Shown here piece after piece: positions 35,484-37,132 of a DNA stretch of 64,000 nucleotides. The notes beneath the pieces are model-generated. The model was not told the DNA's origin, did no database searches, and was given only the letters and a program-made list of their open reading frames with translations. Numbering within the stretch: the stretch's first letter is position 1; every line of letters begins with the position of its first letter. The stretch covers positions 62,001 through 126,000 of the forward strand of contig NZ_JAGDXD010000028.1 of assembly GCF_023256255.1 (NCBI RefSeq), read 5' to 3'. This stretch comes from Caldivirga sp. (GTDB lineage: Archaea > Thermoproteota > Thermoprotei > Thermoproteales > Thermocladiaceae). Both the position numbers and the translations under genes were made by a program.

Positions 35484-35771
35484 CTAATCATTACTACTTA
35501 AATACGCATCTGTAGCATTACATACATCATGGCTTAACGCGTTTAAGACCTGGAAAGTATCGGTGGCGTTAGGCATGGCATCAACATGGTTAACATTAAT
35601 ACCTTGCGACAATAACCCTAAATTTACGTATATTGATAATGCTACCAATAATACTAATGTAAGAAGCGCCAGTACTGGTAATACCTTACTTGAATACGCG
35701 CTATTCCTCCTGCAATGCGTATCATTTTTAATGATCAATTGATCAACGTTAACTTTACTTAAAGGACCCAC
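35484..35771 (-). CDS. small one-TM hypothetical protein
   Basis: 95 aa, not recognised. One clear membrane helix (VLPVLALLTLVLLVALSIYV, about 31-50) between a basic N-terminal stretch (CRRNSAYSSK) and an acidic Asn/Asp-rich outside tail. It may be a real small membrane protein, but it lies in a decayed zone and has no operon partner. Confidence 0.35.
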   Translation of the reverse strand: MGPLSKVNVDQLIIKNDTHCRRNSAYSSKVLPVLALLTLVLLVALSIYVNLGLLSQGINVNHVDAMPNATDTFQVLNALSHDVCNATDAYLSSND

Positions 35772-35843
35772 GTAATGCCATACTCTACCATGCCTAACAT
35801 AAACATAGAGACCTTTACCACTAGAGTTCGGCCTTCATTGTGG

Positions 35844-36017
35844 CTAATAGTCACTTTTCGTGACTATTAGTCGCTCGGCCTCATTACTCCTTCTTCCTCC
35901 CCGTGCCGTCTACGGGACTAACTCCCCTCGAGGACGCGGGGGTTTCATTGGGTGCCCTCCTCCACCTCGCAACTGCTCACAGGCTTCACAGTGGCACCCT
36001 CCAATTAAGCATTGAAG
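35844..36017 (-). pseudogene. IS200/IS605-type tnpB 3' tail with end hairpin
   Basis: Minus-strand frame reads a Gly/Pro/Arg-rich tail, GGGGHPMKPPRPRGELVP, then an in-frame TAG, then TARGGRRSNEAERLIV and a stop inside a hairpin. Such Pro/Arg/Gly tails ending with SNEA-like text are what I associate with archaeal TnpB C-termini. The hairpin CTAATAGTCAC-loop-GTGACTATTAG (35844-35870) is a perfect 11-bp stem. Paired GGGTGCC/GGCACCC and CCCGT/ACGGG add RNA-like structure. In IS605 elements the 3' end of tnpB overlaps the omegaRNA, so an RNA could outlive the protein. The catalytic part is gone. Assignment rests on motif memory. Confidence 0.5.
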
Positions 36018-36023
36018 GAAAAG

Positions 36024-36251
36024 CTAATAAATTTTGTTGTTAAATCGTATGAAACATAGGGGAGTCATAACCTCAACACACCTAATAGCATCAAGGGGAC
36101 TAGAAGCAATTAAAAATAACGAGTAGTTACGTAAATGCGTTACAGACTTAATCACAATTGTACCTTCAAGACCACATCTAGGACATCTGCCTCTAGCCAG
36201 TGCATAAGACTTAAACATAAAGTTCTGGAACTGGTGAATAAAAGTAGCCAA
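36024..36251 (-). CDS. doubtful zinc-ribbon fragment
   Basis: 75 codons. RGRCPRCGLEGTIVIKS looks like half of a zinc ribbon, but the rest shows no family pattern and the frame lies in a decayed stretch beside the tnpB remnant. It may be a fragment of a larger lost gene or chance. Confidence 0.2.
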   Translation of the reverse strand: MATFIHQFQNFMFKSYALARGRCPRCGLEGTIVIKSVTHLRNYSLFLIASSPLDAIRCVEVMTPLCFIRFNNKIY

Positions 36252-36903: not shown

Positions 36904-37132
36904 AACTCCCCTGTATGCGGCCCATTATATAATTTCTACTTCATAAGGCTAATTCTCAGCTAAACCTGTTAGTGTCTGTAGCTTTTTACGTGGCTATTCG
37001 TTGTTTCAATTACTTTTAATACCTTAATGCTAAGTGGGGGGAGTAAATGAGACTGAGTGATTAATTATCATTAAACATTAATCATGATGAAGGTCGAACC
37101 CTACTTAATAAGAGGAGACGCAACGTTAATAA

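Follow-up and report, generated by a model that had tools for sequence, protein, structure and literature searches.

A deleted transposon copy carrying an Sso133-like RNA suggests that hot-spring archaea have an RNA-guided transposon system with unusual wiring

Transposon RNAs in archaea

That archaea carry orphan, transposon-derived RNAs, and that these bind the protein L7Ae, is already known. The RNA-257 paralogues of S. solfataricus are orphan RNAs that act on the 1183 mRNA; such transposon RNAs can be both expressed and regulatory (PMC3674436). In S. solfataricus and Pyrococcus, RNAs linked to transposases bind L7Ae through kink-turns (PMC3124441). In one survey of S. solfataricus, most of the cis-antisense sRNAs were found opposite transposase genes (PMC3432209).

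The RNA analyzed here resembles the RNA-257 family in being orphan and transposon-derived, in having several copies, and in having a promoter (here promoter-like) of its own; it differs in that RNA-257 originates from the distal end of an ISC1904 transposase gene, in sense orientation (PMC3674436). Likewise, the Pyrococcus abyssi RNAs sRkB, sRkC and sRk52 are repeated, orphan, OrfB-related, bound by L7Ae and built with kink-turns or K-loops, but these run in the same sense as the OrfB gene, at its 3' end (PMC3124441).

The second relevant class is that of the RNA-guided IS200/IS605 elements. Here, the omegaRNA overlaps the 3' end of tnpB on the same strand, and the TnpB protein carries a RuvC D-E-D triad. 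A zinc finger is normally present in TnpB. A third relative is a catalog entry, Sso133 (Rfam RF02814, Sulfolobus sRNA133). It models only a 73-nt center; the RNA described here extends from this center to two further stems and a kink-turn, and it is linked with a transposon and a nuclease.

A structured RNA at the end of a short element

The window, which is the whole stretch of 64,000 nucleotides of Caldivirga sp. DNA that was analyzed, contains a non-autonomous element that carries this RNA on its minus strand (Table 1). A sequence-only reading had drawn attention to a GC-rich island with a perfect 11-bp hairpin, proposing that it was the remnant of a tnpB tail whose guide RNA end had been kept. 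Both the island (GC 0.65 at 35900-35999, against 0.35-0.40 around it) and the hairpin (35844-35854 with 35860-35870) are there. The feature is real, but the element to which it belongs is larger, reaching from 35823 to 36147.

Table 1. Features of the element, its RNA and its surroundings in the window
Feature	Position	Strand	Basis and remarks
Whole non-autonomous element, ~325 bp	35823..36147	- (RNA strand taken as sense)	Breaks in homology to full elements and to further copies; flanks vary among copies
Element ends	35823 and 36147		RNA 3' end at 35823; opposite end GTCTGTAAC... at 36147, last base ambiguous
Sso133-like structured RNA, ~181 nt	35823..36003	-	5' end 36003, 3' end 35823; covariance model R1, 205 bits, the window copy being itself among the sequences used to build R1
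Rfam RF02814 Sso133 match (central stem P2)	35897..35958	-	59.3 bits, gathering score 44, E 3.9e-9
Stem P1	35950..35999	-	GGGTGCC (35993-35999) with GGCACCC (35950-35956); two of its pairs change with compensation in other copies
3' domain P3	35823..35890	-	Kink-turn GGAGT-AAT-GA-GGC / GCC-GA-ACTCT closing the 11-bp hairpin; stems change with compensation
11-bp perfect hairpin, apex of P3	35844..35870	-	Compensatory change in L064
TATA-like box AAAATTTATTA	36026..36033	-	~26 nt before RNA start
Remnant, start of small AbrB-like ORF	36049..36075	+	Aligned to the L103 start of ORF MEQIVFRGVIAS; inferred by eye
Last codons and stop of RuvC/TnpB-like gene, STHLIASRGLEAIKNNE-stop	36079..36126	+	78-84% DNA identity to the C-terminal end of the L069, L103, L105 and L109 genes
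Interrupted host gene (zinc-ribbon protein), 5' half	36148..36251	-	Gene continuous in G003, G007 and others
Interrupted host gene (zinc-ribbon protein), 3' half	35484..35822	-	Gene continuous in G003, G007 and others
Second miniature copy of the element, degenerate	36974..37102	+	Both end motifs present; R1 match C28:99040-99102, 30.9 bits

The claim that an intact structured RNA is encoded also held. The minus strand folds at -82.9 kcal/mol, far better than shuffled sequences (z -4.8; 0 of 200 shuffles as good), and its center matches Rfam Sso133 above the gathering score. Three stems (P1, P2 and P3) are seen, with compensatory change at ten pairs, a raw count from related copies in whose alignment one row (C24) was re-registered by one column by hand. 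With RNAalifold alone, stem P1 was not recovered.

Stem P3 brings the RNA to a kink-turn that is located exactly at the end of the element. The direct repeat GAGGCCGA/GAAGGCCGA that had been noticed around the hairpin exists, and each of its copies is one half of this kink-turn (GA pairs and GGCC stem), with the repeated GAGGCCGA forming the inner stem and the GA step. Of 24 RNAs, 12 end in a kink-turn, where shuffling leads one to expect 0.17; the contrast is inflated, because part of the stem belongs to the model by which the set was collected, and because some members are close relatives. Stronger evidence than this count comes from the changes in the stems, which covary among elements (GGAGT/ACTCT, GGGGT/ACCCT, GCCGT/ACGGT) as the GA pairs stay constant. 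Given the kink-turn, the RNA would be expected to bind L7Ae. A box C/D sRNA would have the same terminal C/D kink-turn, but its C-to-D' guide stretch of ~10-12 nt is absent here; C and D' lie just 2 nt apart in the two Metallosphaera yellowstonensis elements (L105 and L109).

A TATA-like box is in place before 19 of 22 RNAs (7.1 expected), as a perfect TTTATA in L103, L105 and L109. In each of ten aligned copies, including copies that lie beside a parent gene, all three reading frames of the RNA strand are interrupted by stops. These stops imply an RNA, rather than a coding tail.

This brings us to the tnpB tail itself. That the island is the decayed 3' end of an IS200/IS605 tnpB gene, with a canonical omegaRNA, was the sequence-only reading, and a motif-level similarity (CCAATGAAxCCNCCC...GGGGAGG) to the canonical tnpB gene ends in the same genome speaks for it. 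It is already contradicted, and we reject it as wrong in all probability. Where the canonical tnpB genes of the window's own genome end (3'), the covariance model R1 detects no RNA on the same strand, no long open frame runs along the RNA strand across the copies, the protein remnant lies on the opposite strand, and the parent elements have their TnpB-like gene upstream of the RNA, in divergent order.

Copies in the genome and mobility

The genome from which the window comes measures 2.07 Mb in 71 contigs. It gives 18 matches by BLAST, and 21 RNA matches in a covariance search with R1, a model built from ten sequences, five of them from this same genome, whose E-values are rough. Aligned copies have two end blocks in common, one starting GTCTGTAAC and the other ending GAACTCT, with variable middles. 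The RNA 3' end is the end of the element, and the flanks beyond it differ from copy to copy. As with MITEs and other non-autonomous insertion sequences, the copies are many, are internally deleted, and have both ends in common with a longer autonomous element.

That the element is mobile follows from the gene that it splits, which encodes a zinc-ribbon protein; homologues in other genomes, including L185 of the same genus, run uninterrupted across the junction. No terminal inverted repeats or target duplications were seen in the element ends and flanks. Nor was a TAM-like consensus visible among ~16 flanks read by eye, many of them belonging to decayed copies.

What has been lost is the nuclease. 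In the window, a small ORF survives just as its start and the nuclease gene just as its final codons, the latter reading HLIASRGLEAIKNNE-stop on the strand opposite to the RNA and ~75 bp away from it. The 71-contig assembly contains decayed pieces of the gene, and no intact one.

A Y1 transposase was considered as an obvious helper and rejected; the genome has one copy, and several element-bearing relatives (G003, G006 and G007, for example) have none.

Parent elements and their divergent arrangement

In relatives, the RNA adjoins a gene of ~365 codons on the opposite strand. Full elements of ~1.47 kb are found in M. yellowstonensis (L105, L109), both of whose ends are common with the window copy. 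Their nuclease genes are each broken once; that of L103, in the same subfamily, is intact and encodes 367 amino acids. Rfam Sso133 is itself found beside the nuclease gene in M. yellowstonensis, at 93.6 bits.

The nuclease gene family is present in 20 of the 61 genomes searched, counting the window's own. Stretches that encode a relative number 104 in the genome collection, and the best 80 of these 104 were used; they are mostly from Thermoproteota, and single ones are labelled Bathyarchaeota, Baldrarchaeota, Nezhaarchaeota and Thermococcus. Across these best 80 loci, R1 finds 27 RNA matches at E<0.01. All but three of them (24 of 27) lie head-to-head with the nuclease gene, upstream of it and on the opposite strand, at a spacing from RNA to gene frame that is near-constant (185-193 nt) in the closest relatives. 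The remaining three are L130, where the gene copy is disrupted and it is uncertain where its frame starts, and two matches elsewhere (L120, L137). A 28th match (L109, plus strand, 35 nt) was excluded, as it is the palindromic hairpin read backwards.

Thus, judged from sequence, the parent is a TnpB-like transposon in which transcription of the RNA diverges from that of the nuclease operon. The arrangement appears to be undescribed in the literature searched; no divergent TnpB guide RNA was found in freely accessible papers. We also know of no OMEGA system with its RNA outside of, and antisense to, the gene.

Comparison with IS200/IS605 TnpB-omegaRNA elements cuts both ways. Alike are the TnpB-like RuvC protein, the structured RNA that ends at the element end, the flank available as a guide, and the lack of any target duplication seen. 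Unlike are the RNA, which is divergent and upstream instead of overlapping the gene on its own strand, the absence of a zinc finger, the AbrB/RHH-like ORF in one group of elements, and the lack of a visible TAM in the flanks read. Much of the proposal of an orphan omegaRNA stands: a mobile TnpB-like element, a lost protein gene, an intact RNA end, and membership in the Sso133 sRNA family. The sense, overlapping layout does not. The idea of an orphan guide RNA survives with the gene antisense and upstream, guide function being what such an RNA would be presumed to have.

Between Metallosphaera and Vulcanisaeta copies (L104, L105, L109, L103), protein identity is 71-85% across orders, which suggests transfer between orders. 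A search with the nuclease family in viral contigs, phages and plasmids found none.

The nuclease and its small partner

The window holds only a C-terminal remnant of the protein, so its character must be taken from the parents. The RuvC triad (D201/E265/D332) is invariant in all 50 aligned parent proteins. A CxxC after residue 240 is found in none of the 50, implying that the zinc finger (TNB) is missing; PF07282 matches weakly in two. No Pfam family covers the nuclease, and its matches in NCBIfam, to TnpB, Cas12f2 and TIGR01765, are mostly weak. An AlphaFold model (pLDDT 90) finds its best PDB folds in Cas12f and Cas12k (TM ~0.5, E down to 8e-9), the closest solved folds, at ~10-13% identity. 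Searching PDB by sequence returned nothing significant (best, a proteasome ATPase and Cas12f, at E 0.07-0.2). The weak sequence matches and the modelled fold together suggest a TnpB/Cas12f-like RuvC protein of ~365 amino acids.

In the first group of elements, the gap between RNA and nuclease holds an ORF of 48-57 amino acids that overlaps the nuclease start. It is AbrB/MazE-like in most, with clear Pfam matches only in L133 and L134, and ribbon-helix-helix-like in L128 and L129; the fold is thus swapped among these four. In the second group (L146, L149, L155), no small ORF of this kind was found.

Such a partner would equally suit a toxin-antitoxin or a self-regulating cassette. One might view the whole as an addiction cassette, in which the small protein counters the RuvC protein as its antitoxin, while the structured end serves mainly in DNA transposition. 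The overlap with the nuclease start, the MazE_antitoxin matches (E 2e-12 and 1.7e-9) and an RHH_6 match (9e-5) fit this, as do two unrelated DNA-binding folds in one slot, which is also seen in toxin-antitoxin operons. We nevertheless consider it improbable. The second group does without the small ORF, the GA pairs of the kink-turn and the promoter speak for an RNA, and Sso133 is a curated sRNA family.

Guide or regulator

The explanation that we consider probable is that the window holds an internally deleted, non-autonomous copy of a TnpB-like transposon that has kept its ends and its RNA gene, the RNA being transcribed outward to carry a guide derived from the flank, with which a RuvC protein would cut the empty donor site. 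The RNA would be transcribed toward the boundary of the element, ending there in the kink-turn. Because the RNA ends exactly where the element ends, transcription past this point would add flanking DNA as the guide, as happens in OMEGA systems. The RuvC protein would bind this RNA and cut the empty donor site; such cutting would favor retention of the element. Deleted copies would go on making RNA, to be used by a nuclease supplied in trans, or by none. Guide function, mobilization in trans, and expression in a Caldivirga-like host are what we infer, of course, rather than what we observe.

Several things speak against this explanation: the missing zinc finger (0 of 50), an RNA outside of and antisense to the gene, the lack of a conserved TAM-like motif in the flanks read, the small AbrB/MazE-like partner, and the lack of an intact nuclease in the window's own genome, albeit in an assembly of 71 contigs. 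It might be, instead, that the RNA works as a regulator. It would then be stable, bound by L7Ae, and would act in antisense or in trans to modulate the element or genes of the host. RNA-257 is reported to act as a regulator, and the transposase-linked antisense and kink-turn RNAs introduced above offer further precedent. We hold this to be unlikely, though less so than an addiction cassette. The RNA does not overlap its own nuclease gene, a pure regulator would have no need for a 3' end that coincides with the element end, and this RNA is tied across orders to a nuclease of the guided class.

More tentatively, and with somewhat less than even confidence, the locus may represent a Thermoproteota RNA-guided element of new architecture, in which an outward, L7Ae-bound, kink-turn guide RNA diverges from an operon of AbrB/RHH protein and zinc-finger-less TnpB/Cas12f-like nuclease, and in which orphan RNA copies survive and multiply once the nuclease has gone. 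If this is true, Sso133, a catalogued archaeal sRNA, would gain a partner protein and a likely job. Guide-RNA transposons would be extended to a new gene order, and a small nuclease family from hyperthermophiles, one without a Pfam entry, would be added. L7Ae, a ribosomal and sRNA protein, would be drawn into the biology of RNA-guided transposons.

Further observations

The degenerate copy in the window lies ~830 bp from the main element, in opposite orientation. On contig C9 (L038 847-1330), two deletion derivatives adjoin, also in opposite orientation. The same genome has one apparent TnpA+TnpB IS605 element (L052, C5:32902-34574), and the end motif GGGGAGGAGGTCAG is common to several of its canonical tnpB ends. 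Last, the RNA is identical over 187 bp in the window (35822-36008) and on contig C9 (C9:46742-46928), and the two copies are diverged beside it; they look as if the RNA segment alone had been copied or converted.
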